A stretch of 64,000 nt of DNA from Halorientalis litorea (GTDB lineage: Archaea > Halobacteriota > Halobacteria > Halobacteriales > Haloarculaceae): NCBI RefSeq assembly GCF_023028225.1, contig NZ_CP095485.1:1-64000 (forward strand). Direction: 5' to 3'. Both the position numbers and the translations under genes were made by a program. Below the pieces are notes generated by a model. The model had not been told where the DNA came from. It saw only the letters and a program-made list of their open reading frames with translations, and made no database searches. This document shows, piece by piece, positions 28,701-57,357 of this stretch. Position 1 is the stretch's first letter. The number at the start of each line of letters is the position of its first letter.

Positions 28701-29753
28701 ATGGCGGACGCATCGGATGCTGACCGGCAGGCGGTCGAACCTGATGCGGGAGAGGTCCTTAGCGTGTCCCAGCTAAACGACCGGATCGCGTCGGTCGTCC
28801 AGGACACGCCTGCCCTCAACAGCGTCCGCTGTATTGGCGAAGTCACTGACCTCCACCAGAACAGTACGGCGCTCTACTTTACGCTCACCGACGGCGACGC
28901 CGAGCTCCCATGTCTGCTCTGGGCAAACCGCTATCGGGAGATGGATGCCGACCTCGAAGACGGCACCGAAGTCATCCTTGAGGGCGATATCGACTACTGG
29001 GTCGAAGGTGGGAAAATCGACCTCAAACCGTGGGAGGTGATCGTCGTCGGCTACGGCGACCAGGCGGCGGCTGTCGAGCGACTGCGAAGCGAACTCGAAG
29101 AGCGTGGCTGGTTCGAAGACGAGCAGAAACAGCAACCGCCGGCGTTCCCGGAGCGGGTCGGCGTCGTCACGTCCCTTCGAGGAGACGCCCGGTACGACAT
29201 CCAGAACGCAATCCACGAACAGGACCCGACCGCCGACATTCTGGTGAAGGACGCCACCGTCCAGGGGTCAGAGGCGCCGACGTCCATCGCGAACGGCATC
29301 CACCATCTCGACCGTTCGGAGGACGTCGACGCGATTATCGTCGGCCGTGGCGGTGGGAGCGATTCGAACCTCCAGGCGTTCAACACCGAGCGAGTGGCGG
29401 AGGCAATCATCACCTCGAACACGCCGATCGTGACCGCCATCGGACACACCGATGACCGGCTCATCGCGGATCAGGTGGCGGACATCGCTACGATCACGCC
29501 GACGGCTGCCGGCGAGTATATCGTGAATTCTCGCGAGGAGTTCCTCGCGAGCGAAGTCAAGCCGCTGGAGCAACACCTCGAAGCTGAGTACGAAACGTTC
29601 CAGCAGGAGCACGAACACGAGCAGGAACTCGCCGAAGCAGTCGGCGAGGCAGCCGCACCAGAGGGTGTTGCCCCGGTTTACTACAAGGCCGCAATCGCTG
29701 TGCTGCTGTTGCTGTTGTTACTCATAACCGGGCTGTGGCTGGGGGTGATCTAA
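28701..29753 (+). CDS. xseA: Exonuclease VII large subunit with C-terminal membrane anchor
   Basis: 350 residues. N-terminal OB-fold (~20-110, SVSQLNDRIASVV...RCIGEVTDLH), then the XseA catalytic domain with D166 in ARYDIQNAI, R216 in GRGGGS, H249 and D251/D252 in GHTDD. Bacterial XseA is ~450 residues with a long coiled coil; here that arm is short (~280-315) and the protein ends in a strong transmembrane helix (~328-347, mostly Leu). This tethers a ssDNA exonuclease to the membrane. The small subunit follows 2 bp later and the transfer genes follow that, suggesting ssDNA processing at the channel. Confidence 0.9.
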   Translation: MADASDADRQAVEPDAGEVLSVSQLNDRIASVVQDTPALNSVRCIGEVTDLHQNSTALYFTLTDGDAELPCLLWANRYREMDADLEDGTEVILEGDIDYWVEGGKIDLKPWEVIVVGYGDQAAAVERLRSELEERGWFEDEQKQQPPAFPERVGVVTSLRGDARYDIQNAIHEQDPTADILVKDATVQGSEAPTSIANGIHHLDRSEDVDAIIVGRGGGSDSNLQAFNTERVAEAIITSNTPIVTAIGHTDDRLIADQVADIATITPTAAGEYIVNSREEFLASEVKPLEQHLEAEYETFQQEHEHEQELAEAVGEAAAPEGVAPVYYKAAIAVLLLLLLLITGLWLGVI

Positions 29754-29956: not shown

Positions 29957-29998
29957 TTAACCAACAAACTCCCAATCGTGTGTGCCTCTGTTGGTTAA
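29957..29998. promoter_or_regulatory. Spaced inverted repeat, copy A
   Basis: TTAACCAACA, 22-nt spacer, TGTTGGTTAA; both arms are perfect. It lies 18 bp after xseB and upstream of the transfer operon. Identical arms recur at 45120, 54999 and 57317. The arm centres are about three helical turns apart, as for a dimeric or tetrameric repressor. Confidence 0.75.
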
Positions 29999-33455: not shown

Positions 33456-34571
33456 ATGGTCGATCTTATTGATGTCGTCCTCGAAGGAATAAAGGACGTT
33501 GTTGAGTGGTTCATCGGGCTGTTCATGGACGGTCTCAGGTCGGGGTATGAGACTCTGACCGAGGGAATGTTCGGGACGCCCACTCCAGAGACGAACGGGG
33601 CCTTTGTGTTCGGTGATCCGACCAATGCACCTTGGCCAGCGATCCACGATGCTCTCATCGGCGGCGAAATCATGCTGGTCGCCCTTTTACTCCTCGTGAT
33701 AACCGTCCAGGGGCGTCACACGGTTCGAATCTTCAATATCGGGAGTGCCTATGAAGCCCGAAAAACCAAGAAGACAGCCTGGGTCGGAGCCTTTCTGATT
33801 ATCACGTGGTACTGGATTGGGACTCTCGCGCTCTACCTCGTTGACGGATTCACTATCGCCCTGATGCCGGAACTCTCCTCAGTTACGGAGGCAATGCTTG
33901 GGTTCTTGCAGGTATCTATCACAAATCCAGGGTTGGGGCTGTTGTTCGCCGTGATTGGTGGAATCTCGATGTGGGCTCTAGAGGCGCTGTTCTACATCCG
34001 GATGATTCTGCTCTATGTCTACCTGTACGGAATGCCGATTGCATTTGCACTGGCTTACGGAAACATTCCAGTCGTATCCGATATCGCGATGGGGTTCTAC
34101 AAACGATTTGTCCCGTTAGCTGTCCTCCCGCTCCCCGCTGCGATGGTACTCAAGGGATACGACTTGATCTACGGTGGGGGGACGCTCACGCCAGGAACAG
34201 CGTTCCTCAAATATCTCGTCGCTGCGTCCCTCCCACTGGTCGCACTCTTCATCACGTGGAAGACGTTCAAATACGCGACTCCGTTGACGGCCAAAGTCGT
34301 CGGCGGTGCGACGAAAGGTGCAGCCCTCGTTGGCGGTGTCGCCGCCGGGGCCTACGTCGGTGGCGCGGGCGTCGCGACGACCGCCGCTCGCTGGGGGCCG
34401 AAAGCCGCCGCTGGCCACGCCGTCGCCCAAAAAGCAGCTGCCCGCGGTGGGCACGGAGAAGACGGTAGCGGCACGCCATCGTACCGTCGAACGGAGAATG
34501 ACCCAGGTGGAGCGACAGCGGAATCGGCGAGTGACGACCGCGGGATGGACTTTGATCGAGGGATCCACTAA
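33456..34571 (+). CDS. VirB6/TrbL-like polytopic membrane protein
   Basis: 371 residues with about six transmembrane helices between residues 68 and 270 (including IMLVALLLLVITV, AFLIITWYWIGTLALYL, GLLFAVIGGISMWAL, ILLYVYLYGMPIAFALAY and YLVAASLPLVALFITW). A Gly/Ala-rich helix follows (~285-310), then a disordered cytoplasmic tail. Topology, length and position between a lipoprotein and VirB3/VirB4 genes are those of the VirB6/TrbL inner-membrane channel component of type IV secretion systems. Confidence 0.75.
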   Translation: MVDLIDVVLEGIKDVVEWFIGLFMDGLRSGYETLTEGMFGTPTPETNGAFVFGDPTNAPWPAIHDALIGGEIMLVALLLLVITVQGRHTVRIFNIGSAYEARKTKKTAWVGAFLIITWYWIGTLALYLVDGFTIALMPELSSVTEAMLGFLQVSITNPGLGLLFAVIGGISMWALEALFYIRMILLYVYLYGMPIAFALAYGNIPVVSDIAMGFYKRFVPLAVLPLPAAMVLKGYDLIYGGGTLTPGTAFLKYLVAASLPLVALFITWKTFKYATPLTAKVVGGATKGAALVGGVAAGAYVGGAGVATTAARWGPKAAAGHAVAQKAAARGGHGEDGSGTPSYRRTENDPGGATAESASDDRGMDFDRGIH

Positions 34572-34573
34572 CA

Positions 34574-35695
34574 ATGTCGATAGACAAAGACGCAGCCGCA
34601 CGGCGCATCATGGACCAGTTCGGCGAGGAGAGTCGTATCCCCTACCTCAATATCGAGGAGGGTGACGTGGGCGTCCTGATCGCCTTCCCGATCGTCGGCC
34701 TGTTCATCGCCGGCCTCACGGGCATCGAATCGCTTGCGCTTCCGTTCGTCGCCGGCGGCTTCGGCTTTGGCGTCGCCATCGTCTACGTCTCTCCCGATCA
34801 CCTGAATGCGTGGACGTGGACCAAGGACGTCTATCGGTACGTCAAGCGGCCGCAGATTACATTCAGTGCTCCCGAAGACGCCGACGGGACCACCAACGAA
34901 ACAGAGCGCAACGAGGGCGGCCTAGCGAACTACACGCCCTTCAAGCCGGACGAGCGAACGCAGGACCTCACGAACATCGAGCGGGCGTGGCCGGGCGCAG
35001 GAGCCATTCAGCGGGACGACGGGACGATGGAGGCGTTCATCGAGATCGACCCCGACAACATGGACTTCGCGATGTCCGACGACTGGGCCCAGCTCCAAGA
35101 CGCTGGCGAGGACTTCGCCAACAAAGAGCTGGACTCGAAGCTCAAACTCCACGCGACGACCCGCTCGTTCCCGGTCGAACAGATTACGGAGAACATCGAA
35201 GACCGCCTCAACGACGAGGACGTCACGGAGAACCCGATCTTCAAGGAACTCCTCGAGGAGTACCGGGAGACCCGACCGAAGGAGATGCGGGAGCGCGGCA
35301 TCCAGCAGGTGCGATACTACATCGGCGTCCAGGTCAGCCCGTTGGAGGTCTACGACCGCTTCCGCGACGAGGGCACACCCGCCGAGAAGCTGACGCAGTT
35401 CCCCGTCATCGGCTTCCTGTTCAACCCGTTCGTCACCCGTCGCGAGGACCTCACTGACGTCGAACGTCGCGCTCAGATGTTCGAGAAGCTGGACAGCCGA
35501 GTCAACGACGTGCGGTCGGAGTTCATCCAGCAGGCGTCGGGCTGGTCCGCTCGGCGGCTCAGCACGGTCGAACTCTTCGTGTTGAATATGGACTTCTGGA
35601 ACGGTCGGGAACACGACTACGACGAGGCAGAGCGTGTCGTTCGCGAACAACCGATCATCGGCCAGTCGCGCCGGGAGGATGCGTTCGATGCGTAG
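34574..35695 (+). CDS. VirB3/PrgI-like membrane protein fused to VirB4-N-like domain
   Basis: 373 residues. Two close transmembrane helices at ~35-75 (VLIAFPIVGLFIAGLTGI and LALPFVAGGFGFGVAIVYV) precede a ~270-residue soluble domain. The two-helix hairpin resembles VirB3/PrgI. The soluble part resembles the N-terminal, non-ATPase domain of VirB4-like proteins (RYYIGVQVSPLE). Its 3' end overlaps the VirB4 gene by 8 bp. In many bacteria VirB3 and VirB4 are fused, so this split layout is consistent. It probably anchors the ATPase to the channel. Confidence 0.7.
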   Translation: MSIDKDAAARRIMDQFGEESRIPYLNIEEGDVGVLIAFPIVGLFIAGLTGIESLALPFVAGGFGFGVAIVYVSPDHLNAWTWTKDVYRYVKRPQITFSAPEDADGTTNETERNEGGLANYTPFKPDERTQDLTNIERAWPGAGAIQRDDGTMEAFIEIDPDNMDFAMSDDWAQLQDAGEDFANKELDSKLKLHATTRSFPVEQITENIEDRLNDEDVTENPIFKELLEEYRETRPKEMRERGIQQVRYYIGVQVSPLEVYDRFRDEGTPAEKLTQFPVIGFLFNPFVTRREDLTDVERRAQMFEKLDSRVNDVRSEFIQQASGWSARRLSTVELFVLNMDFWNGREHDYDEAERVVREQPIIGQSRREDAFDA

Positions 35696-37913
35696 CGCGG
35701 TCCTTCAAGCAGGGGGCGGCGTGGGCAGCCAGCTCGTCAGATGGCTCTCCAGTCCGACCTCTACGGAGGGTGCGGCGCTCTATCTCCTCATCGTCGTCCT
35801 GCTCGGTATCGGGGGAAAACTCCTCTGGGACTGGTACACCGAAGACGACACGGAAGAAGTCGAGTTCTCGGATGTTCTCGACGAGGAGACACTCGAACAG
35901 GGCGAGGCCGAACGCCAGCTCCTTGACGACATCGCTGAGTCTCACAAGACGGTGACCGCGCCGGCTGCCGCCGAGTGGGAAACGCGAGCCGCCCGAGTCG
36001 GCGAGCAGTGGACGACGACGCTGTACATCGCCGACTACCCGGACTACCCCAACGACGGCTACCTCAGCGATCTCTTCGAGATGACCGACGTGCAGTTCGA
36101 CCTGACGGCCCACATCACGCCAAAGAATCAGGAGCGGGCCCGGAACGAACTACAGGACATCGCTGACGATCTTCAGGTGGATGCCGACCTCGAACAGAGC
36201 GTCCGGAGTGCCTACCTTCAGGAGCGGGCCAACGAGGCCGCAGCGACGTACACAGCTGTCGAGAACGGCGCGAGCGTCTTCGACCAGGGGATGTTCATCA
36301 CCGTTCGGGCCGACGAGAAGGACGACCTCAGAGACGCCGTCCAGAAGGTCAAGAGTGCGCTTCGTGACGACCCGGCGAATCTCACGCCGAAGACCGCAAT
36401 CTGTCGGCAGGACCTCGCCCTACAGTCAGCCGCGCCCATCGGCGACAACGAGTTCGGCCGTACGTCAATCGCACTCGGCGGCGCCGTCGGTGCGTTGCTC
36501 TCCTCGCCGCACAACGCGACGATCCTCGAGGAGGGTGGCGTCGAGTTCGGGATTCACAAGGACAACCAGAGTCCGGTGGTCATCGACCCGTTTGCTCGGG
36601 ACAACGGGTACGCGATGTTCACCGTCGGCGACACGGGCTCGGGGAAGTCGTTCAGTTCCAAGCAGAACTTTATCCGATCCATCGAACAGAGCAAGGACCG
36701 CATCGGCATCATCCTCGAACCGCTGAACAACTGGGCCGGAGTCTCGGAAGCCCTCGATGCCAAACGAATCACGGTCGGCGGGACGCTCGGGCTGAATCCG
36801 CTGGAGATCCGGGAGACCCCGGAGCACGTCCAGCGGGCGATGGGTGAGGACGCGAGCCCGTTCAACGAGAAGCTCGACGACGCGATGAGCTTCCTCACGA
36901 ACTTCTTCGCCCTCCGCGGTATCTCGCTGGGCGACCGGCGGACGACGCTCGAACTCGGGCTCAAGCGTGCCTACAAGCGCCAGGACATTACTGACGACAT
37001 CTCCACGCACAGCAATCCGAGCCCGACCATCCGCGACATGATGGACGTATTCGAGGATATGGTCGACGACCCCGAGGAGTTCGTCGTGCGGTCCGACGAG
37101 GAAGCCGGGAAGATCAAGGAGGACGCAACGTGGCTGCTCGATCAGCTCCGCCCCTTCGAGGACGACGGTCGCCACGCGAATCTCGGCCAAGAATCAGACT
37201 TCGACATCCGGGACGAGAAGGTCATCTATCTCGATCTCGCCCAGCAGGAGGGGAGCGTGGACAGCAGCACGGCACTGACGATGCAGCTCCTCATCTCGCT
37301 TGTGTACGAGCGAGCGAAGGTCTCGGACAAGGAGGTCGTGTTCTACATCGACGAGGCCCGCTATATCATGCAGGACGCCGCCAGTCTGGCGTTCCTAGAG
37401 ACTGTCTTCCGGCACCACCGTCACCACGACCTCTCGATCCGGCTGGTCACCCAGACGGTCGACGAGTTCTTCGAGCACGCCGAATCCGAAGCGATCCTCG
37501 ATCAGTGTGCCGTCAAGCAATTCCACCGCCTCGACGGGATGGACGAAGACTGGGCCGACGAGTTCGGTCTGAACTACGCACAGATGCGGTTCGTCCAGGA
37601 TGCGGTGCCCGGCAACGAGGACGCTGGCTTCTCCGAGGCACTGGTCGGCGTCGACGGCGAGTGGCGCGGCATCCAGGTCAAAGCGATGCCCAAGGAGAAA
37701 CAGGTCATCGACTTCGACCCGACTGCCCAGGTCCGCTCCTCGCTCCCCGGCGCCGGCGACAGCGCTGTCGATAGCGAGATGGAGGAATTCCAAGCGGACC
37801 TAGAAGAGCAAGTAACGAACGGAACGAGCGAAACGAACACCACCGAGGATGAATCCGACGCCGTCGCAGCCGAGCCAGACGGCGGGTCAACGGAGGGAAC
37901 CGACGATGGCTGA
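35688..37913 (+). CDS. virB4: VirB4-type conjugation ATPase
   Basis: 741 residues from ATG 35688, chosen because a GGAGG stands 9 nt upstream (35674-35678) and the longer form would overlap the previous gene by 60 bp. One transmembrane helix (~28-45), then a VirB4/TraC/HerA-type motor: Walker A GDTGSGKS (~314-321), DE Walker B in VVFYIDEARYIM (~551-556) and a TQ-type sensor (LVTQTVDEFFEHAE). The acidic C terminus is encoded partly by three 9-bp AACGA repeats (37814-37836), the same motif as at parA. It powers pilus assembly or DNA movement. Confidence 0.92.
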   Translation: MRSAVLQAGGGVGSQLVRWLSSPTSTEGAALYLLIVVLLGIGGKLLWDWYTEDDTEEVEFSDVLDEETLEQGEAERQLLDDIAESHKTVTAPAAAEWETRAARVGEQWTTTLYIADYPDYPNDGYLSDLFEMTDVQFDLTAHITPKNQERARNELQDIADDLQVDADLEQSVRSAYLQERANEAAATYTAVENGASVFDQGMFITVRADEKDDLRDAVQKVKSALRDDPANLTPKTAICRQDLALQSAAPIGDNEFGRTSIALGGAVGALLSSPHNATILEEGGVEFGIHKDNQSPVVIDPFARDNGYAMFTVGDTGSGKSFSSKQNFIRSIEQSKDRIGIILEPLNNWAGVSEALDAKRITVGGTLGLNPLEIRETPEHVQRAMGEDASPFNEKLDDAMSFLTNFFALRGISLGDRRTTLELGLKRAYKRQDITDDISTHSNPSPTIRDMMDVFEDMVDDPEEFVVRSDEEAGKIKEDATWLLDQLRPFEDDGRHANLGQESDFDIRDEKVIYLDLAQQEGSVDSSTALTMQLLISLVYERAKVSDKEVVFYIDEARYIMQDAASLAFLETVFRHHRHHDLSIRLVTQTVDEFFEHAESEAILDQCAVKQFHRLDGMDEDWADEFGLNYAQMRFVQDAVPGNEDAGFSEALVGVDGEWRGIQVKAMPKEKQVIDFDPTAQVRSSLPGAGDSAVDSEMEEFQADLEEQVTNGTSETNTTEDESDAVAAEPDGGSTEGTDDG
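37814..37836. repeat. Three 9-bp-phased AACGA units inside virB4
   Basis: AACGA begins at 37814, 37823 and 37832, the same 9-bp register and sequence as the parA-region arrays. It encodes part of the Thr/Asn/Glu-rich tail of VirB4. Confidence 0.6.
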
Positions 37914-40900
37914 CTACCTGCGCGTCACCCCGACCTCCGAGCAGCTCGATGCCGAAAGCATCCCCCGCGTCCTCGACAGCCTCCACAAACTGACTACGCC
38001 GGGGTCGTCAGGCCTCGGAGCAAAGCTGAACCCGCTCAACAGTGAGACACCACCTCGGTTCGAATTTCTCGCGATCAGTGATGGACCGGATGAGCCGGTT
38101 GAATTCTTCTACGGCGCCGATGCTCACCTCGATACCCTCGAGAAACGCCTCCGCTCGATCTACCCGTCAACGTTCGATATCGAACGCGTCGACATCGATG
38201 TCGCCGACCGTCTCATTCAGCCGGTCGAGTTGACACCGGAGGAGTTCGTCGAGCATTACGAAGCGGGCTGGCTTCAGTACGAGTTTGGTCCAGGGGAGCA
38301 GTACGAGCACGTCGACGAAGAGCCCGCTGACGCCGACGCAGCCGATACGGACCCGGTCGTCGACGGCGGCACGGTATCCGCCACAATTCCCGACCATCAC
38401 GTTGTCATCGGCGACTCCGTTCTCGAACTTGCCTCCCCCGAGACGCTTCCTGAGGATGAGCAGCAGCCATCGATCGAGAAGCCGACGATGACGACGAGGG
38501 GGACGATCCTGGCACGGCCAACCGAGGACACCGTCTCCCCGCTCGGTGTCCAGTGGTGTGGGTCCGCGTCTCGGAAGCAGGATTGGATGACGTCGCTGAC
38601 GCCGTTCACAGCGGACGAGTCAGACGGGAATATCTCCTCGGTCGACCAACCCGGTGCCGCGCTCGCGACGCTGATCGACCACCTGATGGAGGCGACAGCC
38701 CCGACCGCGTTCCAAGTCGTCTTCCAACGACGCAGCAGCTGGCAGTCCGACGCGGAAGTGCGGAAAGAGGACCTCGTCGACGGCCGAGACACGTTCTTCC
38801 AGGAGGTCGTCGGGTCGTTCCTCGAGGTCGAGGACCACCGGAGCGACCAGGACGAACGACAACTCAGTGAATCCGTCGAGAAACGGATCGAGTACATCGA
38901 CGCGAAGAACGCCAAACGGTCGTTCACGGCGAACATTCGCGCCGTCGGCGTGCCTGCTGATGGCTCTCGCGAGGATCTCGATGCTCGCATGGATTCGCTC
39001 CTCCCGGTGTTCGATACGCTCGATGGGCCGTTCTACGAGGTGGAGGGACAACGGCTCCGGGAGAGTGGTTTTCGTGAGAAAACGAAGGAGAAGAACGCAG
39101 GGGCGGCGCTCCAGCGTCTTCTCAACCGAGAGTTGACGACGGGACGGGGGAAGACCCGCCCCGAGCTGGTCCTCTGTGGGACGGAGCTCGCGAACTTCGT
39201 CCTTGTCCCCTCCTCCGAACAGTTGACCGTTGAGGGAACACGGGGGACTCGGGCCGAACAGCAGAGCCGCAATCCGCTCCCGTGGCCGAATCCCGACCTG
39301 ATTCAGCAGTTCCAGGACGGGATGGAGATCGGGTACGCCCTCGACGATAACGGGGAGCCGCGACCAGACCCCATCCGGATCCCGCCGGACCTGTTGCCAA
39401 CGCATTACGGGCGGTTCGCCTCGACTGGTGGCGGGAAGTCGAAGGCCATCATCAACGACGCGCTCTCGCTCCGCGAGACGACGGGTGGCCCTGTCGTGCT
39501 CGTCGACCCGAAGGGCGACGGGATGTGTGAGAACTACCTGCGCTGCCACTACGAGCGGTTCAGTGGCCTCGACGACGTCTACCACTTCCGCGTCCCGGAG
39601 ACCATCCCCGCGTTCTCCTTCTTCGACATCCGGCCCGCACTCGAAGCGGGTCGCAACCGAGAGGACGCGATTCAGGACAAGGTCGACCACTTCCACGACA
39701 TCCTCCGGATGATTATGGGCCGCGAGCAGTACGGCCAGGCGTTCGTCGCGAACGAGATCCTCAGCTACCTGATCAAGGCGCTGTTCGACGAGGAGTACGG
39801 GAACGACGTCTTCGGGCTGGACGACCTCTTCGCCGCCGCGCTCCGGATGCAGCGCGACCAGACGATTCCCCCGGTCTCGGCGGACAACCAGAACATCGAG
39901 GAATCGCTGACGCGTCACTTCGCGAAGGACAACCACCAGTTCCAGGTGTCGATGGACGCCGTCGGGAACCGCCTCGACAAGCTCAAAGAGGACGCGCATC
40001 TCCGGCGGATCTTCAGCCACGTCCCCGAGCAGAATGACGCCGGCGAGTACGTCGACAACCGGTTCGACTTCCGCGAGTTCCTCGATGAAGACGCGACCAT
40101 CATCTTCGACCTCGGCGACCTTCGGCCGGAGGCACAGCGAGCGATCACACTCCTGCTGTTGAGCAACCTCTGGGACGCCGTGCAGGTGCGCCGTCGCGAC
40201 GGTCAGACCGACTACGAGAAGCTCACGAACCTCATCATCGAGGAGGCGGCGCCGGTCGCGTCGACAAAGCTCGTCTCCGAGCAGCTACTGCCGCAGGGCC
40301 GGTCGTTCGGCCTGAGTATGGGGCTCGTGATGCAGTTCCCCGAGCAGGTGCGGAATCGGAACGAACGGGCCTACGACGAGGTGCTGAACAACATCAAGAC
40401 GAAGCTCATCGGCAACATCTCGATTGAACGCGATCTCGCGGAGTCGCTCGCCCACGAGGACCTCAGTCCGACCGAACTTCGCAACCGAATCAACACGCTC
40501 CCGAGCGGTGAGTGGATCGCCCAGCTCCCGAGCCCCTCGTTCGGGGAAACTGGCCCACCGCCGTTCTCGCTGAAGCCGCTCCCCATCGCGCCGGGGCATC
40601 CAGAAAGCGACCAGCCGCTCACAGAGCCGCAGGAAGACCATTTCGAGTCCGTGTCCCGGCCACGGATGGTCGAGCGGACACAGGCCCAGTACGGGCTGAC
40701 AGCGACGACTGAAACGAGCCCTGCCCCGGAGGAGGCGGGCTGGGGAAGTTCAGGAGCCGACACGACGGGCTCATCGGTTGATGGAGAGACGGGGAGCGAC
40801 CCGACCCAGTCCGCGTTCATCAGCCAAGCGACGACCAAGAACGGGTCGACATCGACGACTCAGCCCGAGACGGACACCGAGTCCGGTGGAGACCACGGGG

Positions 40901-41724
40901 AGATCAGTTCGTTGTTCGGGGAACCCGCTGCTAGCGATAGTGACCCAGCTCCCGACCAAGCAGCGCAACCGGCGAACGGATCAACGCCCGTTCAGGACAG
41001 CGGCATTCCCGTTCCCGATGACGAGCTTCGAGAACGCGGGCTCAGTCGCGACGATGTCCGATTCCTGGGCCGAGTCCTCGACGTGATGAACAGGGACGAC
41101 GAGTACACGCTCTTGAAGAGTATGCGCCAGCTGCGAGACGATTACGAGGACCTCCATCTGGAGCGGCTCACGGAGCAGGAGCTATTGGATGAGGGATCCG
41201 CCGCTGGGCGCAAGTACTACACCGTGCTTCCGGCCGGGCGAGAGCTCCTCGGCAGGGAACTGAACGCCGGCCCCGGCGAGGGTGACCTCGGCGAGAAAAC
41301 CCCGCACAAGGTTGGCGTCCGGCTCCTCGAGTTGTGGCTCCAGCAGCAGGACGACGTCGTTCGCGTGGAGCCGTACTACGAATACGACGATGGAACGGTA
41401 CTGGATGTAGCCGGGTTCGACGATGAGGGCAACCTCGTCTGGGCTGGTGAAGCAGAGCTCGCGAGTAACAACAGGCACGCCCCGGTCGAGGATTACGACA
41501 AGCTCAGCGCCGTGGACGGCGACGCAGTTTGGGCGTTCAACACTCGGGAGACGGCCATCGACGTGCTTGATGCGCTTGCCGACGCCGACAGGATCGACGA
41601 GCGTGTCAGTGGGCGGTCGGCGCGGTCGTTCGCGAACATCAGAGACGCCGTCGACGACCTCGATGCTAACGGCCTGACCACCGTTCGGGGCTTCAAAAAT
41701 CTCAAAGAGGAACTCGAGTCATGA
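37906..41724 (+). CDS. VirD4/TraG-type coupling ATPase with C-terminal extra domains
   Basis: 1272 residues from ATG 37906, overlapping the virB4 stop. Residues ~1-480 are a large N-terminal region; the motor follows with Walker A STGGGKSK (~506-513) and Walker B ATIIFDLGDL (~730). A disordered Ser/Thr-rich linker (~930-1030) leads to a winged-helix-like segment (~1035-1115, SRDDVRFLGRVLDVM). The final ~140 residues carry VLDVAGFDDEGNLVWAGEAEL (Asp, then Glu-x-Glu), reminiscent of a PD-(D/E)XK core. No transmembrane helix is seen, unlike bacterial VirD4. It probably brings DNA substrate to the channel; the nuclease-like tail could nick or recognise it. Confidence 0.82.
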   Translation: MADYLRVTPTSEQLDAESIPRVLDSLHKLTTPGSSGLGAKLNPLNSETPPRFEFLAISDGPDEPVEFFYGADAHLDTLEKRLRSIYPSTFDIERVDIDVADRLIQPVELTPEEFVEHYEAGWLQYEFGPGEQYEHVDEEPADADAADTDPVVDGGTVSATIPDHHVVIGDSVLELASPETLPEDEQQPSIEKPTMTTRGTILARPTEDTVSPLGVQWCGSASRKQDWMTSLTPFTADESDGNISSVDQPGAALATLIDHLMEATAPTAFQVVFQRRSSWQSDAEVRKEDLVDGRDTFFQEVVGSFLEVEDHRSDQDERQLSESVEKRIEYIDAKNAKRSFTANIRAVGVPADGSREDLDARMDSLLPVFDTLDGPFYEVEGQRLRESGFREKTKEKNAGAALQRLLNRELTTGRGKTRPELVLCGTELANFVLVPSSEQLTVEGTRGTRAEQQSRNPLPWPNPDLIQQFQDGMEIGYALDDNGEPRPDPIRIPPDLLPTHYGRFASTGGGKSKAIINDALSLRETTGGPVVLVDPKGDGMCENYLRCHYERFSGLDDVYHFRVPETIPAFSFFDIRPALEAGRNREDAIQDKVDHFHDILRMIMGREQYGQAFVANEILSYLIKALFDEEYGNDVFGLDDLFAAALRMQRDQTIPPVSADNQNIEESLTRHFAKDNHQFQVSMDAVGNRLDKLKEDAHLRRIFSHVPEQNDAGEYVDNRFDFREFLDEDATIIFDLGDLRPEAQRAITLLLLSNLWDAVQVRRRDGQTDYEKLTNLIIEEAAPVASTKLVSEQLLPQGRSFGLSMGLVMQFPEQVRNRNERAYDEVLNNIKTKLIGNISIERDLAESLAHEDLSPTELRNRINTLPSGEWIAQLPSPSFGETGPPPFSLKPLPIAPGHPESDQPLTEPQEDHFESVSRPRMVERTQAQYGLTATTETSPAPEEAGWGSSGADTTGSSVDGETGSDPTQSAFISQATTKNGSTSTTQPETDTESGGDHGEISSLFGEPAASDSDPAPDQAAQPANGSTPVQDSGIPVPDDELRERGLSRDDVRFLGRVLDVMNRDDEYTLLKSMRQLRDDYEDLHLERLTEQELLDEGSAAGRKYYTVLPAGRELLGRELNAGPGEGDLGEKTPHKVGVRLLELWLQQQDDVVRVEPYYEYDDGTVLDVAGFDDEGNLVWAGEAELASNNRHAPVEDYDKLSAVDGDAVWAFNTRETAIDVLDALADADRIDERVSGRSARSFANIRDAVDDLDANGLTTVRGFKNLKEELES

Positions 41725-42605
41725 CGTGGCGACAGGCAACGCGTGAGGAGATCTACGCCTACTACGCCGAGGAGTTTCCTCGCTATGTCGATGACCTGCC
41801 GGACTTTATCTCGGCGACGGGCCCGAAGCAGTACGCCGTCGCCTTCCGCGAGCCCCATCCGGTGCGCAACGATGAGGTGCCGGACAAGGACTTCATCCGG
41901 CGGGATACGTGGCAAACGGATCCATCAGGCGATCGAACGACGGCGGAGTTCAGTAGCTTCGAGGACGTCGTTGAGTTCGTTCGCCATCCCGCACGGAACG
42001 ACCCACTCGGCCGAAGCGAATTCGCACTCGCTGACCCAGAAGTCTTGGAGCAACCAGATCCACGCCCCGATGCCGTCTACTACGCGCTCGACCACTGGGA
42101 GCGGCCGTGGGTCCTCCTCGTCGATATCGACGCCAAGGAGATCGCTCGGGAACGAGCCGCGGATACGGTCTCGGACGACGTCGACGACCGGGACGACGAG
42201 GCACTCCTCGACGCCGCCGGCATCCTCGACGCCGAGCCAACCGGATATCCGTACGCCTTCGAGGACGTCGACCAAGCCATCGAGTACGGGTTCGAGGTAC
42301 GGGACATCTTCGAGGACGATTTCGATGCCGAGGAGACGATGGTGGTGTACAGCGGGCAGGGTGTCCACGTCTACCTGCTGGATACGGACCCGGGTCACCG
42401 GTACGACGAGCAGAGTCGCGAGGTGTTGAACGATCTCCTTCTGGAGACGTACGACATCCCGATCGACCCCGTCGTCACGGCCGACCGCCGGCGCGTCGCC
42501 CGCCTCCCCTACTCGCTCCACGCCGACGTGTGCAGCATCGTCCAACCCATCGAAAGCCCGGCGTTCGACGTGCGGTCGGCGACACCTGAGGTGATCGGCG
42601 AATGA
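41721..42605 (+). CDS. priS: PriS-like primase catalytic subunit
   Basis: 294 residues, overlapping the coupling-ATPase stop by 4 bp. Archaeo-eukaryotic primase motifs are in order: D135-x-D137 (WVLLVDIDAKE), S211-G-x-G-x-H216 (YSGQGVHVYL), and a third block with D250, D255 and RLPYSLH (~261-267). It is a little shorter than chromosomal PriS (~330-390) and lacks a clear zinc finger. The next gene encodes the PriL-like partner. Expected activity: RNA/DNA primer synthesis, probably to convert transferred single-stranded plasmid DNA to duplex. Confidence 0.85.
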   Translation: MTWRQATREEIYAYYAEEFPRYVDDLPDFISATGPKQYAVAFREPHPVRNDEVPDKDFIRRDTWQTDPSGDRTTAEFSSFEDVVEFVRHPARNDPLGRSEFALADPEVLEQPDPRPDAVYYALDHWERPWVLLVDIDAKEIARERAADTVSDDVDDRDDEALLDAAGILDAEPTGYPYAFEDVDQAIEYGFEVRDIFEDDFDAEETMVVYSGQGVHVYLLDTDPGHRYDEQSREVLNDLLLETYDIPIDPVVTADRRRVARLPYSLHADVCSIVQPIESPAFDVRSATPEVIGE

Positions 42606-44125
42606 GCCCCAGTACGCCCACCGACGACGATGACGCAGCGTATCGAGTTGCGGCACTCCCGCTGGAGTACGGTGAGACCCGCATCAACCAGCTGTTTACG
42701 CGTGGCTACAACCGATACGTCGTCGAGGGCGAGGACCAGCCCGAGGACCTCGTGAACGATCTCGAGCGGTTCGGGACGGCGGCGTTCAAAGAGCAGGTTC
42801 GTGCCGACGCCGCTGAGGAGCCGTTCGTCGACGAGCCCGGGACGCTCGCCGTGCTTGCAACGCTGAGTGCGATCTGTGTAAAGGAGCACCCGAAGTTCGA
42901 GCACGCATCGCCCCGGAACATCCAGGTGCTCTACGACATCCGGGAGCTGTACGTCAACAATCTCGCCTCCCTCATCCGTGCTCGCGGTGATGGGGCGCTC
43001 CAGCAGGACATCGCCGACGTGCTGTACAGCAAGGAGCCCGGCGAGGATGGCCCACACCCTGGTCGTGTCTGTACGGGCATCACAGAGATGCCGGAGTTCG
43101 GGGAGGGTCTCTACCTCGAAATCCCGATGGCCGCAGCGTCACGCAAATGTCTCGTTCGGGAGAACCAGGGGTCGACGGGGAGTGACGATGGCGGGGAGAT
43201 ACTGACGCGAGTGAAAGACAACAAGCTGTACGTCCCGGTCGGTAATTTCGACAGCAAGTATCGGGACTATGCTGAGCGGGCGTTCAAAAAGCTCCTGCGG
43301 GTGCAAGAAGACGGGCTCTCCGACGACCAGCTGACGTGGCTGACGACGAACGAGTCTGCGATAACGGAGCGGATCGACCGCTTCCTCGAGACCGGCCATC
43401 ACGAGCGGATCTGGCGGAACTGGGACCGTGGCGAACGGACGATCCGCGTCCTCCGGCGAGCCCTGAGTGACGCCCCCGACGACGTCGCCCAGAAAGGGGA
43501 GTTCCTTACAGCGAAAGAGCTCTATCGAGCGGTCGAGGCGTACGAGGCCGAGGACGACTGGGAATCATCCGTGACGGATTGGATCTCGAGTCCGAGCAGT
43601 CTCGCCAAGACGTTGGCCGACCACGAGTCACATTCGGCGGTCACCATCGACCGCGACGGGCGCGTCAACACCTATCGAATCGGGCGGGCCGGAACCGGCG
43701 CTGAACAGATCGAGGTGCGGGAAATCGAGGACCTCTTCCAACTCCCCTGTCTGGCGAATATGGAGGAGCGACTCCACGAGAAGAAGCCGGTTCGGAAGGA
43801 TCTCTACAACTTCGCGCGGATGGTGATGTGGCTGCCGCAGTACCAAGACAGCAGCCTCGACGAAATCGTCGCGGACCTCAAGGACGTCTTCTCCAGGTGG
43901 CCGTGGTACGACGAGCAGGAAACTGAGTACCAAGTCCGCTACGAGTTCTCGAACACGATCGGCGGAGACACCCCGTTGCCGATGAACTGCGATAACGACG
44001 ATATGCAGCGCTACTGCATCGGCCAGGACCAATGTCCCTACTCGATCTGGGGCAGTCTTCCGTTCCCGGACGAGATGTACGAACAAGTTGACGAGCAGTC
44101 CGCCGGCCCCGCTGAGCAATTCTAA
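42602..44125 (+). CDS. priL: PriL-like primase large subunit (Fe-S domain)
   Basis: 507 residues, overlapping the PriS-like stop by 4 bp. The C-terminal ~130 residues match the PriL iron-sulphur domain: LPCLANMEERL with C383, a helical stretch RKDLYNFARMVMWL, DEQETEYQVRYEF, and then C463, C472 and C478. The four Cys are spaced as in cluster-binding PriL. The N-terminal ~370 residues are divergent and longer than usual, with a helical region like PriL-N (SAICVKEHPKFEHASPRN). PriL regulates initiation and primer length, so the plasmid carries a full two-subunit primase. Confidence 0.85.
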   Translation: MSPSTPTDDDDAAYRVAALPLEYGETRINQLFTRGYNRYVVEGEDQPEDLVNDLERFGTAAFKEQVRADAAEEPFVDEPGTLAVLATLSAICVKEHPKFEHASPRNIQVLYDIRELYVNNLASLIRARGDGALQQDIADVLYSKEPGEDGPHPGRVCTGITEMPEFGEGLYLEIPMAAASRKCLVRENQGSTGSDDGGEILTRVKDNKLYVPVGNFDSKYRDYAERAFKKLLRVQEDGLSDDQLTWLTTNESAITERIDRFLETGHHERIWRNWDRGERTIRVLRRALSDAPDDVAQKGEFLTAKELYRAVEAYEAEDDWESSVTDWISSPSSLAKTLADHESHSAVTIDRDGRVNTYRIGRAGTGAEQIEVREIEDLFQLPCLANMEERLHEKKPVRKDLYNFARMVMWLPQYQDSSLDEIVADLKDVFSRWPWYDEQETEYQVRYEFSNTIGGDTPLPMNCDNDDMQRYCIGQDQCPYSIWGSLPFPDEMYEQVDEQSAGPAEQF

Positions 44126-44669
44126 ATAATAGACTTCCCCTCAGATTTTCGAGAATCGTGTTGCAGACCAAAGCCAGTCTTTTCAGAATCCCCGTCGAGC
44201 AATTTTCAGCGGCTAACACAACCGGAATCGAGGGAATCGGGGTGTTTCACGATTCGAAGTACCGAGCCGGGGAGCCTCGAGAGACACAGAACAGGTGAAG
44301 CAGCGGCCCGGTGAAATTTAGATACCTCCGAAATCACCTTCATCACCCCCTCGTCGAGCAAATTTTGGGACTCCAGTATCGCTCCCGAACTCGTCGAGGT
44401 GTTTTCTACTGCCTCAAATCGGCCCGACGGAGTTCTTCTTCGATTTGAGGCCGTCATATCGTCTTGCATATCGCGGATTTCGTCCAAAGAAAGAGGCGAT
44501 ATGCAGTGTGCGAAGGCCGCCGGCTCTCTCAGGCCGAGGGGCCGTCATCCAGAGTTTGGATCCAGTAATCTATCAGATTTAGCGCATAGGTTGACAGGGT
44601 GTGTGTGTCAGTGGTGTCTGTCGCCCCCGCGAGGGGGTGGCGGGGCGCATCACGTGCCCCCGATAGACG
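44126..44669. other. 544-bp noncoding region with spaced inverted repeats
   Basis: No gene. It holds two inverted repeats of the same geometry: GCCTCAAATCG/CGATTTGAGGC (44411-44421 and 44441-44451, 19-nt spacer) and TGCATATCGC/GCGATATGCA (44465-44474 and 44496-44505, 21-nt spacer). It also has a direct repeat around CGTCGAGCAA(A)TTTT (44187 and 44349) and a leader hairpin at 44622-44647. Position after the primase pair makes it a candidate replication or transfer origin; this is inferred. Confidence 0.55.
44622..44647 (+). promoter_or_regulatory. GC-rich leader hairpin, copy 1
   Basis: CGCCCCCGCGAGGGGGTGG, followed by CGGGGCG. C-rich and G-rich arms pair; the downstream ATG (44670) is 22 nt away. 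The same block precedes the starts at 57715 and 59261. It may be a leader RNA structure controlling translation or transcription. Confidence 0.6.
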
Positions 44670-45110
44670 ATGGCTTCGGAACGACGCAGCAAGACACGAG
44701 CAGCGCATCAGGCAGGAACTACCCCCGACGGTCAAGCACCGTGGGAAGACATCGAGGTAACGGTTCCGACCGACCGGGATCACGCGTCCGTCGTAGCGCT
44801 CGTGGAGTGTGCTCTCGTCGAACTCACGCACGAGACCGTGGGCGCCGTCTTCATCTCCCGGCAGGTCGGGCGGTCGACGCGGACGCAGTACGTCGCAGCC
44901 GACGACGTCGGCGAGCAGTTCCAGAAACGGCACTTCGACGACCGGCTGGGCTGGCACGAGACCACCGTCCCTCGACGAACCGTTCGCGACGAGCTCATTA
45001 CTCAGCTCACGCGGTCGGCATCAACGACGGCGGAGCGGTCAGGTAAAGAAGCAGCCAGCGAGCCAGATACCTTCGTCGTGAAGCCAGTTCGAGAGCTCCG
45101 AACGCCGTAG
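44670..45110 (+). CDS. Unknown protein behind a leader hairpin
   Basis: 146 residues, mixed charge. Central strands and helices (VTVPTDRDHASVVALVECAL, then LTHETVGAVFISRQVGRSTRT) suggest a compact alpha/beta domain; the N terminus (SERRSKTRAAHQAG) and C terminus are disordered. No family recognised. It follows the 544-bp noncoding region and leader hairpin copy 1, and inverted repeat copy B lies 9 bp after its stop. Confidence 0.65.
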   Translation: MASERRSKTRAAHQAGTTPDGQAPWEDIEVTVPTDRDHASVVALVECALVELTHETVGAVFISRQVGRSTRTQYVAADDVGEQFQKRHFDDRLGWHETTVPRRTVRDELITQLTRSASTTAERSGKEAASEPDTFVVKPVRELRTP

Positions 45111-45119
45111 CGGCTAGAC

Positions 45120-45161
45120 TTAACCAACATTCCGAACCGATACCGACACACTGTTGGTTAA
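45120..45161. promoter_or_regulatory. Spaced inverted repeat, copy B
   Basis: TTAACCAACA, 22-nt spacer, TGTTGGTTAA, with perfect arms. It lies 9 bp after the stop of the preceding gene and 130 bp upstream of the BglII-like nuclease. Confidence 0.75.
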
Positions 45162-45292
45162 CGTTGAGGGTGGGTCCACTCCCTCGCCCCCACCCACCGC
45201 CCTGATACTCGAGTATGTGTATCCTGGCGGCCGGTCCGCTCGAACGGCAGTCGCGACGGGTTTTATCGGCCCGCTACTCCTCGAGAGCGAGT

Positions 45293-52924: not shown

Positions 52925-53845
52925 ATGGCAACCAGAGACATCTATGAAACTGGCTTCGACGAAGACGTCCGAACGGAATCGAGTGCGAACCAGTGTCCCG
53001 AATGCGACGGACGGGTCACCACAAACGCGGTCGAAACGCTCTGCGAGGACTGTGGCCTAGTCATCGACGAACAACGTATCGATCACGGGCCGGAGTGGCG
53101 GGCGTACGACGACGAGGAGTGTGAACGAACGGGCGCCCCACTCACTGCAGCCCGTCACGATCGAGGCCTCTCGACCGAGATCGGCCACGGAACCGATGCG
53201 CACGGGAACGAACTCTCAGGCCAGAAACGCCGACGGCTGGCCCGGATGCGACGTGAGCAGACCCGTGGTCGCTGGCGGTCGAAAGCGGAACGGAATCTCG
53301 CACACGGGTTGGGCGAGGTACGCCGGCTGGCAAGTGCGCTCGAGCTCTCCGAATCGATTCGTGACCAGGCGTGCCAGCTCTTCCGGAGCGCTCAGAGCGA
53401 GGATCTGCTTCGTGGCAGATCCATCGAAGCCATCGGCGCAGCGAGTATCTACGGTACCTGTCGATGTAACCAACACCCACTCCTCCTCGAAGACGTCGTC
53501 GATGCCGCCCGAGTCGAGTCCACTCGTGTCATCAACGCCTATCGAACACTGAATCGCGAATTAGAGCTCCCGGCGCCGCTAATGCGCTCGACGTCGTTCA
53601 TTCCACGCCTGATCTCGGAGCTGGAGTTAGACCACGACATTCACCGACGCGCGAACGAACTCGCAGAACGCGCCGAGGGGACAACCCTCACGAACGGCTG
53701 TCAGCCATCGGGCGTCGCGGCCGCCTGTGTCTATCTGGCTGCCCAAGAGCAGGGCGCGTTGATTACCCAATCCACCGTCGCGTCGGCAGCAGAGGTGTCA
53801 GTCGTGACGCTCCGAAGCCGGCGAGACGAACTCCAAGCGATCTGA
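52925..53845 (+). CDS. tfb: Transcription initiation factor TFB
   Basis: 306 residues from ATG 52925. Zinc ribbon C24/C27/C40/C43 (CPEC...CEDC), B-finger/linker region (GPEWRAYDDEE, then TGAPLTAARHDRGLST), and two cyclin repeats (~110-200 and ~205-300). Haloarchaea use several TFBs to direct RNA polymerase to gene subsets. A plasmid-borne copy could redirect transcription to the element. A TFB C-terminal fragment lies 1.2 kb downstream (55078-55233), so tfb genes have been duplicated or replaced here. Confidence 0.92.
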   Translation: MATRDIYETGFDEDVRTESSANQCPECDGRVTTNAVETLCEDCGLVIDEQRIDHGPEWRAYDDEECERTGAPLTAARHDRGLSTEIGHGTDAHGNELSGQKRRRLARMRREQTRGRWRSKAERNLAHGLGEVRRLASALELSESIRDQACQLFRSAQSEDLLRGRSIEAIGAASIYGTCRCNQHPLLLEDVVDAARVESTRVINAYRTLNRELELPAPLMRSTSFIPRLISELELDHDIHRRANELAERAEGTTLTNGCQPSGVAAACVYLAAQEQGALITQSTVASAAEVSVVTLRSRRDELQAI

Positions 53846-54998: not shown

Positions 54999-55039
54999 TT
55001 AACCAACAATCTCCGACAGAGATGGATTCTGTTGGTTAA
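54999..55039. promoter_or_regulatory. Spaced inverted repeat, copy C
   Basis: TTAACCAACA, 21-nt spacer, TGTTGGTTAA. It begins 20 bp after the stop of zinc-ribbon paralog 1. Confidence 0.75.
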
Positions 55040-56411: not shown

Positions 56412-57320
56412 ATGAGCCAACCGATGCACAACAGATATTCTGACTTTGAGGAACTGCGGCCGACTGGCGAGGCGTCCCACATTCCGGACACGAGGCTGGA
56501 CGATGGGTTTGAGGGTGACCCCAAGCGACAACGCGTCGCGACGACCACGGGTGGCTACCCTGACGAGCCGTCGACCACCGACGGCGAGTGCCGGTCCTGT
56601 GGGGCGTCAGTCCCAGACAGGCAGACGAAATGCCGGTTCTGTCTCACCAACCATCTCGAGAGTGACGCCACCAGCTCGGTTGAGTCAGCGTCGACGACGT
56701 ATCTCGGTATCATCCACCTGGTCGTCGAGTCGACCACGTTCTACGGGGCCGTCGCGAAGGGCGGTGCCGGGGCGAACCTCCTCTCTGCCAACGAGGCGGA
56801 GCCGGCCGTCGACGACTACACGCTCATCTACGATCTCGACGAGGCGCCGGCGCGCCAGGTGGCCGAGCAATGGCCCTCACTCCCCGACGCGGTACAGGTG
56901 TCGTCAGAGGAGGGAGAGGGGCTTCTCAGTGCCGCCTGTGACCGGACTGGGTGGTACGGGCAGGGAGTGTCGAAGCGCCAGGAGCAGGCCCCGATACGGC
57001 TCTACGACCAGCGGGGGAATGGCATCCGCGACCCGTCGCGTCTCACTGAGGTCCTCGACGACGCCGACGGCGCGGTGTGGCTGGTCCCAGCGATGGCGCT
57101 GACCGAATCCGCTGGCGAGGCTGCGGCTGAACGTCAGGTGTCGTCGGTACCAACGACGCAGGAGCTCGACTGTCAAAACTGTGGACGGGCAACCGACCAT
57201 CGGTTCAAGACCCATGAATCAGTCCCGGATGCGGCGTGGACGGGCCAACCGATCTGGGAGTGCCGGGTGTGTGGCTCAGCTCGCTACGGGCCGAGTCCAT
57301 CGACGCACCGTTCGTCTTAA
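56412..57320 (+). CDS. Zinc-ribbon protein, paralog 2
   Basis: 302 residues with the same domain order as the gene at 54109: zinc ribbon CRSC...CRFC (~61-79), central block STTFYGAVAKGGAGANLLSA and TLIYDLDEAPARQV, and C-terminal ribbon CQNC...CRVC with AWTGQPIWEC. The stop codon lies inside the left arm of inverted repeat copy D, so repeat and gene moved together. The segment between the paralogs holds the HTH/unknown pair and the TFB remnant, which suggests tandem duplication with later insertions. Confidence 0.75.
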   Translation: MSQPMHNRYSDFEELRPTGEASHIPDTRLDDGFEGDPKRQRVATTTGGYPDEPSTTDGECRSCGASVPDRQTKCRFCLTNHLESDATSSVESASTTYLGIIHLVVESTTFYGAVAKGGAGANLLSANEAEPAVDDYTLIYDLDEAPARQVAEQWPSLPDAVQVSSEEGEGLLSAACDRTGWYGQGVSKRQEQAPIRLYDQRGNGIRDPSRLTEVLDDADGAVWLVPAMALTESAGEAAAERQVSSVPTTQELDCQNCGRATDHRFKTHESVPDAAWTGQPIWECRVCGSARYGPSPSTHRSS

Positions 57321-57357
57321 CCAACAAAATGGCTATATGATTCTCAATGTTGGTTAA
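57317..57357. promoter_or_regulatory. Spaced inverted repeat, copy D
   Basis: TTAACCAACA, 21-nt spacer, TGTTGGTTAA. The left arm contains the TAA stop of zinc-ribbon paralog 2. Confidence 0.75.

Follow-up and report, generated by a model that had tools for sequence, protein, structure and literature searches.

What is the purpose of the noncoding DNA that separates the conjugation and primase genes of a haloarchaeal plasmid from the reading frame that follows them? The DNA analysed here (the window) is 64,000 nucleotides long and comprises positions 1-64000 of C4, a 140,250-bp plasmid contig of Halorientalis litorea (NZ_CP095485.1). Among public plasmid records, those closely related to it come from haloarchaea (e.g. 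a Halorubrum trapanicum plasmid). An operon that includes the first five genes below lies upstream of the gap, and orf146 follows it:

33456-34571, + strand: TrbL/VirB6-like channel gene (PF19590, 463 bits)
35634-37913, + strand: VirB4-like conjugation ATPase gene
37849-41724, + strand: gene for a 1291-aa ATPase (likeness to HerA weak, under the cut-offs)
41721-42605, + strand: archaeal primase small-subunit-like gene (PF01896, E 2e-5, slightly below the cut-off)
42602-44125, + strand: primase-associated protein gene (NF038197, 859 bits)
44126-44669, + strand: noncoding gap of 544 bp, with ORF 42602-44125 on its 5′ side and ORF 44670-45110 on its 3′ side
44670-45110, + strand: orf146, a 146-aa ORF (no Pfam or NCBIfam match)

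The primase-associated protein contains conserved cysteines at residues 383, 463, 472 and 478 and gave a weak match to PriL (E 0.007); at a guess, these four cysteines, near its end, may recall the PriL iron-sulphur domain. Its predicted structure (pLDDT 49) was set aside, and sequence searches of solved structures with this protein and with orf146 returned no meaningful match. Adjoining the conjugation operon is a gene resembling the exonuclease VII large subunit (28701-29753, OB fold, PF02601, E 1.2e-51), and three TnpB-like genes are found on C4 (13421-14674, 57776-59038 and, beyond the window, C4 110650-112035).

The gap does not encode a protein. Overlapping ORFs were intact in 6/46, 1/46 and 1/46 aligned sequences, compared with 40/46 for the 146-aa ORF, and the variation within the gap of these 46 sequences was without codon phase; a hidden gene was ruled out on both grounds. 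A first-pass annotation had drawn attention to two inverted repeats within this region and had proposed, on their account, an origin of replication or of transfer:

44411-44451, no strand: inverted repeat 1 (11-bp arms, 19-nt spacer), arms GCCTCAAATCG at 44411-44421 and CGATTTGAGGC at 44441-44451
44465-44505, no strand: inverted repeat 2 (10-bp arms, 21-nt spacer), arms TGCATATCGC at 44465-44474 and GCGATATGCA at 44496-44505

Both were recovered exactly as described, 54 bp apart centre to centre, and the 544-bp region proved to be noncoding and to contain a direct repeat as claimed (CGTCGAGCAATTTT at 44193 and 44352; a weaker third copy starts at 44392). The annotation had likewise compared their spacing with that of the TTAACCAACA elements of the same plasmid. 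Those elements have 10-bp arms and spacers of 21-22 nt and share no arm sequence with inverted repeats 1 and 2, such that the likeness is one of geometry only. When perfect 10-bp arms with spacers of 3-30 were sought in dinucleotide shuffles of the gap, two inverted repeats were found in 0/500 and one in 8/500. Across the 140-kb contig at least two occurred in 7/514 overlapping 544-bp windows, 2 of which overlap the gap. The pair of inverted repeats is not due to chance.

Homologs of the gap, whole or in part, were found in 85/391 genomes of the class, representing 40/86 genera. In the plasmid set 54 records matched positions 44186-44672; according to the listed query ranges, 46 of them extend upstream of the element termed box D and 8 cover box D only. 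Comparison of these loci defined the following features:

44136-44192, + strand: variable 5′ edge of the gap, with other DNA inserted in many relatives
44186-44546, + strand: conserved noncoding module (ABC), ~360 bp, its edges taken from homology matches and alignments
44193-44206, + strand: direct repeat A, CGTCGAGCAATTTT (CGTC in 46/46 group-1 sequences)
44352-44365, + strand: direct repeat B, CGTCGAGCAAATTT (CGTC in 44/46 group-1 sequences)
44392-44405, + strand: direct repeat C1, CGTCGAGGTGTTTT, the weaker copy (CGTC in 43/46 group-1 sequences)
44508-44547, + strand: 40-bp G+C-rich block, the part of the module recognisable in all three groups
44616-44668, + strand: box D, two neighbouring hairpins inside an outer stem, stopping right before the ATG of orf146

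The loci fall into three groups. Group 1 (46 sequences including the window) has the same layout as the window; its alignment was built from 45 loci plus the window, after dropping L001 (the window itself), L005 (the same record as L004) and loci whose match was shorter than 800 bp or began after 44200. Group 2 is diverged and retains the 40-bp block and orf146. In group 3 (9 loci) the module lies downstream of a TTAACCAACA inverted repeat and upstream of other genes, which encode a protein with the N-terminal sequence MDCPACGG and, in several loci, a protein that we read from its sequence as ribbon-helix-helix-like. A replicon usually carries one or two copies of the module. The carriers include pNRC100 of Halobacterium salinarum NRC-1 and also contigs of chromosome size (e.g. 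G106:C1, 3.5 Mb). A search of phages gave no match to the module, nor did a search of viral contigs with one exact 23-mer.

Three direct repeats and the 40-bp block, rather than the inverted repeats, are the constant features of the gap. GTC was present at each of the A, B and C1 sites in all 9 group-3 sequences. By pattern search, 40 of the 41 group-2 sequences contain at least one A/B-like copy, 30/41 at least two, and 33/41 the C1 form. The A-B spacing is 157-161 bp and the B-C1 spacing 39-40 bp in groups 1 (n=46) and 3 (n=9); in group 2 the pairs found by patterns, from most of the 41 sequences, are separated by 158-160 bp and 39-40 bp, respectively. The spacing is thus rigid despite the divergence of the intervening A-B DNA. 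Mean variability per site was 0.11 for 44386-44550 and 0.09 for box D, compared with 0.18 for the third codon positions of orf146; the module is under purifying selection and conserved beyond synonymous sites. Inverted repeat 1 is lost in group 2 and, in group 1, is paired in 81% of cells, which is not above shuffles. Inverted repeat 2 is retained in groups 1 and 3, while group 2 (compared without L083) has different arms at this place (TGYACC / GGTACA type), often with one mismatch.

Homology in relatives resumes at ~44136 or at ~44181-44192 after inserted DNA, marking 44126-44192 as a frequent insertion place, and in pNRC100 an arsenic-resistance (ars) gene cluster sits between the primase-associated gene and the module. 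In front of several module copies just the final 70-140 codons of this gene remain, the breakpoints differing from copy to copy (e.g. the shortened 3′ end at G358:C21:98738-99052). From the sequences, it looks as if the module had been retained while the primase-associated gene decayed.

Repeats and hairpins in noncoding DNA downstream of primase genes would suit a vegetative origin of replication, and this was one half of the first-pass proposal. It was not supported. The nearest orc1/cdc6-like genes found (C4:104776-106122 and 113052-114080) do not adjoin the gap; the former lies 60 kb from it on the same plasmid. That orc1/cdc6 gene is next to a B-family polymerase gene and is flanked at either end by ORB-like repeats, nine in all (104519-104725 and 106265-106797), while a search of C4 for ORB-like repeats (at most 6 mismatches) found none in the gap and one stray at 53291. 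Origins adjacent to orc1/cdc6 with ORB repeats are known in haloarchaea (PMC3528665). The gap resembles them as plasmid-borne noncoding DNA with repeats, but has neither an orc1/cdc6 neighbour nor an ORB-like repeat. The orc1/cdc6 locus with its ORB-like repeats is therefore most likely the vegetative origin of C4, as judged from sequence. The annotation had named GC skew as a check: over the contig the cumulative curve has its minimum at 40663 and its maximum at 116345 without a clean V, and the minimum, 3.5 kb from the gap, is shallow, making it weak support for an origin at best. Of the two findings it had said would tell against its proposal, an origin elsewhere is predicted here, whereas a lack of repeat conservation is not what we observe, the gap being strongly conserved.

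A second type of origin was also considered. The archaeal rolling-circle origin described in PMC13107129 lies downstream of a Rep-Arvir gene and has a variable palindrome before a conserved stem-loop. The gap is alike in being noncoding and 3′ of a DNA-replication gene, and may also share the order of palindrome and hairpin: inverted repeat 1 varies and the blocks after it are constant, with no assignable nick site. It differs in that the gene upstream is the primase-associated gene, that three direct repeats are fixed, and that the Rep-Arvir initiator PF25227 had no match in the whole genome, in a search whose control was positive in Haloferax volcanii. Moreover, small plasmids carrying all or part of the module (NZ_CP034146, NZ_CP054590 and NZ_CP011951) each have their own orc1/cdc6 elsewhere. 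On pNRC100 the search for a replication gene found two 1128-aa ORFs carrying DUF5817 only, and RepH was not identified. Taken together, a vegetative origin in the gap is most improbable.

The 3′ part of the gap belongs to a separate unit. Box D stops at the ATG in every context, including paralogues without the ABC module, and box D, orf146 and the inverted repeat 3′ of it are found without the module on other plasmids, including C3 of the same genome. Because each also occurs without the other, two units meet in the gap, namely ABC (~44186-44546) and box D-orf146. DNA related to orf146 was found in 157/391 genomes of the class. Its AlphaFold model (pLDDT 74) gave nothing at E <= 0.001 with Foldseek and no match at Z >=8 with VIA-align (best Z 6.6 over 86 residues), and we therefore draw no function from the fold; a search for viral relatives of orf146 found none. 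The gap might be merely the promoter or operator region of orf146, conserved through recent spread, and it does always lie directly upstream of a gene. This is very unlikely, since few promoters would be expected to span ~360 bp and hold three spaced repeats, the groups are not young, their orf146 proteins differing by up to 55%, and the ABC module and box D-orf146 also occur apart.

The orf146 unit ends in one of a family of inverted repeats:

45120-45161, no strand: TTAACCAACA-N22-TGTTGGTTAA inverted repeat that closes the orf146 unit on its 3′ side
29957-29998, 45120-45161, 54999-55039 and 57317-57357: copies of the TTAACCAAC/GTTGGTTAA repeat in the window
88809, 98112, 101380, 104111, 106847 and 112241: remaining copies of this repeat on C4

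In total, the plasmid has ten inverted repeats of the form TTAACCAAC-N23/24-GTTGGTTAA, each 41 or 42 bp long with a spacer that varies, and all half-sites are paired. The repeat occurs in 271/391 genomes of the class, compared with one genome for a reversed-pattern control. Homology between related loci often stops at or just past a TTAACCAACA repeat (45129-45234; C4 104111 versus L065), a pattern that looks as if modules had been exchanged at these repeats; they may serve site-specific recombination or act as shared operators. A tyrosine recombinase of C4 was rejected as an explanation of the sites: PF00589 has nine matches in the genome and none on C4. Searching the literature for the TTAACCAACA 10-mer returned no haloarchaeal paper among the matches listed. 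Among the matches listed, the literature searched, which covered few subscription papers, gave no description of the module or, in haloarchaea, of the TTAACCAACA repeat.

If the + strand of the gap were transcribed, it could act as a structured RNA or a long 5′ leader governing orf146 or the alternative downstream genes; box D would be its portion adjoining the start codon. Several observations favour this. The orientation to the next gene is identical in all three groups, and box D stops at the ATG everywhere, even where ABC is missing. A single-sequence fold of 44380-44672 beats 200/200 shuffles (z -3.7), and RNAalifold of group 1, with near-identical sequences thinned to 38, favoured the + strand in several windows, with z scores of -4.5 (44387-44506) and -3.9 (44546-44662), compared with -0.9 and -2.2 on the - strand. 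When G.U and A.C cells were counted (near-identical sequences thinned to 42), they stood at 50 to 4 in the outer stem of box D and 40 to 2 in its second hairpin. Counts were 64 to 4 for an alternative helix (44391-44400/44422-44430), 45 to 5 for a G+C stem, 8 to 3 for inverted repeat 2 and 0 to 3 for G+C stem 2.

Other observations argue against an RNA. Many of the G.U cells stem from one fixed pair, and both the first hairpin of box D (2 to 5) and inverted repeat 1 (14 to 29) lean the opposite way. Covariation in group 1, where informative changes are few, was not above shuffles, with 97.4% of cells paired versus 97.2% and 67/500 shuffles as high. In group 2 (thinned to 25 sequences) the strand signal was weak and mixed, the - strand being clearly better in 3/9 windows. 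An Rfam search of the gap, which would miss a novel family, gave a single chance-level match on the other strand (E 1.2), and our own stem search of 58 sequences (L083 and L085 left out) found mostly short, chance-like stems, the best of them near box D. Large RNAs of the GOLLD/ROOL type are carried by mobile elements and comprise several hundred noncoding bases that are conserved; the module is alike in these respects, but differs in having no Rfam match beyond chance level and no covariation above shuffles. Finally, tolerance of a few bases in spacing amid sequence divergence fits DNA phasing better than RNA loops. Since the spacing is rigid across diverged sequence, we prefer a DNA-bound protein array for ABC, and consider an RNA or leader function of the gap the main rival, possible but rather doubtful. 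Box D itself is a fair candidate for an RNA leader of orf146, because it always ends at the start codon and G.U exceeds A.C in two of its stems.

What, then, would a protein array on ABC serve? A context table covers 56 places of group 1 and 9 of group 3; further matches that were weak or short did not enter it. A VirB4 relative (at least 60% identity) was encoded on the same contig in 46/56 group-1 places, and a primase-associated gene in the same orientation ended no more than 9 kb upstream in 45/56, within 100 bp in 14/56, with DNA often inserted between this gene and the module. For group 3 the corresponding figures were 3/9 for VirB4 and 0/9 for a primase-associated gene within 9 kb. The closed plasmids NZ_CP034146 (41 kb) and NZ_CP054590 (53 kb) combine the module with orc1/cdc6. 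No conjugation genes were found in the annotation of the former or, past its first 3 kb, of the latter, and a VirB4 search of the genome-set contigs taken as their counterparts (G172:C2 and G074:C4) found none. NZ_CP011951 (35 kb) carries just a 150-bp, 80%-identical part of the module, and no VirB4 relative from pNRC100 was present among the best 60 of 132 records. Carriers without a T4SS are as expected of a site that is served in trans; equally, they could carry a gene leader. Because these plasmids keep the group-3 downstream genes, the module may have travelled with its neighbours.

The genome includes another conjugation plasmid, C3, which carries box D-orf146 without the ABC module (G000:C3:38649 and 44811), and also a 417-aa ORF that is maybe another kind of primase. 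As C3 has a closely related VirB4 together with orf146 and no module, a T4SS of this type can do without the module, which counts against a transfer role.

Fixed-spacing direct repeats are also what a maintenance site (partition, incompatibility or copy control) would offer to a plasmid or host protein bound via the three repeats. The usual one or two copies per replicon agree with such a role, as does the presence of the module on plasmids both with and without conjugation genes. The module, however, mostly adjoins conjugation-primase genes rather than genes of the parA/parB type, and it is also found on chromosome-size contigs (G106:C1), where partition would be needless. We regard a maintenance site as unlikely.

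We therefore return to transfer, the other half of the first-pass proposal. As a cis-acting site for conjugative transfer, oriT- or clt-like, the ~360-bp module finds its best single reading, one that we hold tentatively and that may well be wrong. The proposal does not survive on the strength of the two inverted repeats, the first of which is lost in group 2; because inverted repeat 1 is not kept, the transfer reading rests instead on the three direct repeats with fixed spacing. In its favour, the module is noncoding, selected and modular, contains three spaced repeats and hairpin-forming blocks, and usually follows the conjugation-primase operon. Against it, the module is oriented alike toward the next gene in all groups, which a leader also explains, and the group-1 alignments fold better on the + strand.

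The proposed site can be compared with known systems. A bacterial oriT is noncoding and lies beside T4SS genes. The module shares the noncoding character and the proximity to conjugation genes, and is also carried by replicons in which no T4SS was found, but differs in having no recognised relaxase. The clt loci of Streptomyces consist of direct repeats recognised by the TraB translocase, with no relaxase involved. The module is similar in presenting direct repeats beside genes for DNA-moving ATPases without a recognised relaxase, but is longer, has just three widely spaced repeats, and neighbours an ATPase whose likeness to HerA is weak. For the module itself we identified neither a cognate relaxase nor a nick site, and no protein that binds it. 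MOB-suite typing (via PLSDB), which would miss novel relaxase families, classified 110/110 matching plasmids (20 of them among the matches listed) as non-mobilizable, and therefore no known relaxase site competes. PMC9905601 reports no apparent relaxase homologues in archaeal genomes or conjugative plasmids.

How such a site might work can be outlined. The module would be a cis-acting DNA locus serving the plasmid's own mobility or upkeep, and is a candidate for the point of recognition and loading in conjugative transfer. A plasmid-encoded protein would bind the three repeats as a phased array, bending or opening the DNA, and the bound array would mark the plasmid for the transfer or maintenance machinery. 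The ATPase and the VirB4-like machinery might then take up the DNA from this array. Box D would be a separate 5′ leader tuning orf146, the first gene past the site. In its most specific form, the proposal is that of a relaxase-free haloarchaeal transfer site, its three phased repeats being read by the plasmid's ATPase-primase apparatus, with other plasmids carrying the site so that they can be mobilised in trans; we consider this conceivable, if somewhat improbable.

How DNA is chosen for transfer in archaea is an open question, there being no apparent relaxases according to PMC9905601. The module offers a defined 360-bp segment with three repeats, also present on pNRC100 of the model organism Halobacterium salinarum NRC-1, and its role is thus directly testable by cloning and mating. 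Even if it turned out to act as an RNA or in maintenance, the module would remain a plasmid element of wide distribution for which no description was found in the literature searched. If the transfer reading is true, the module would supply the cis-acting transfer site that has long been missing for conjugative plasmids of haloarchaea.
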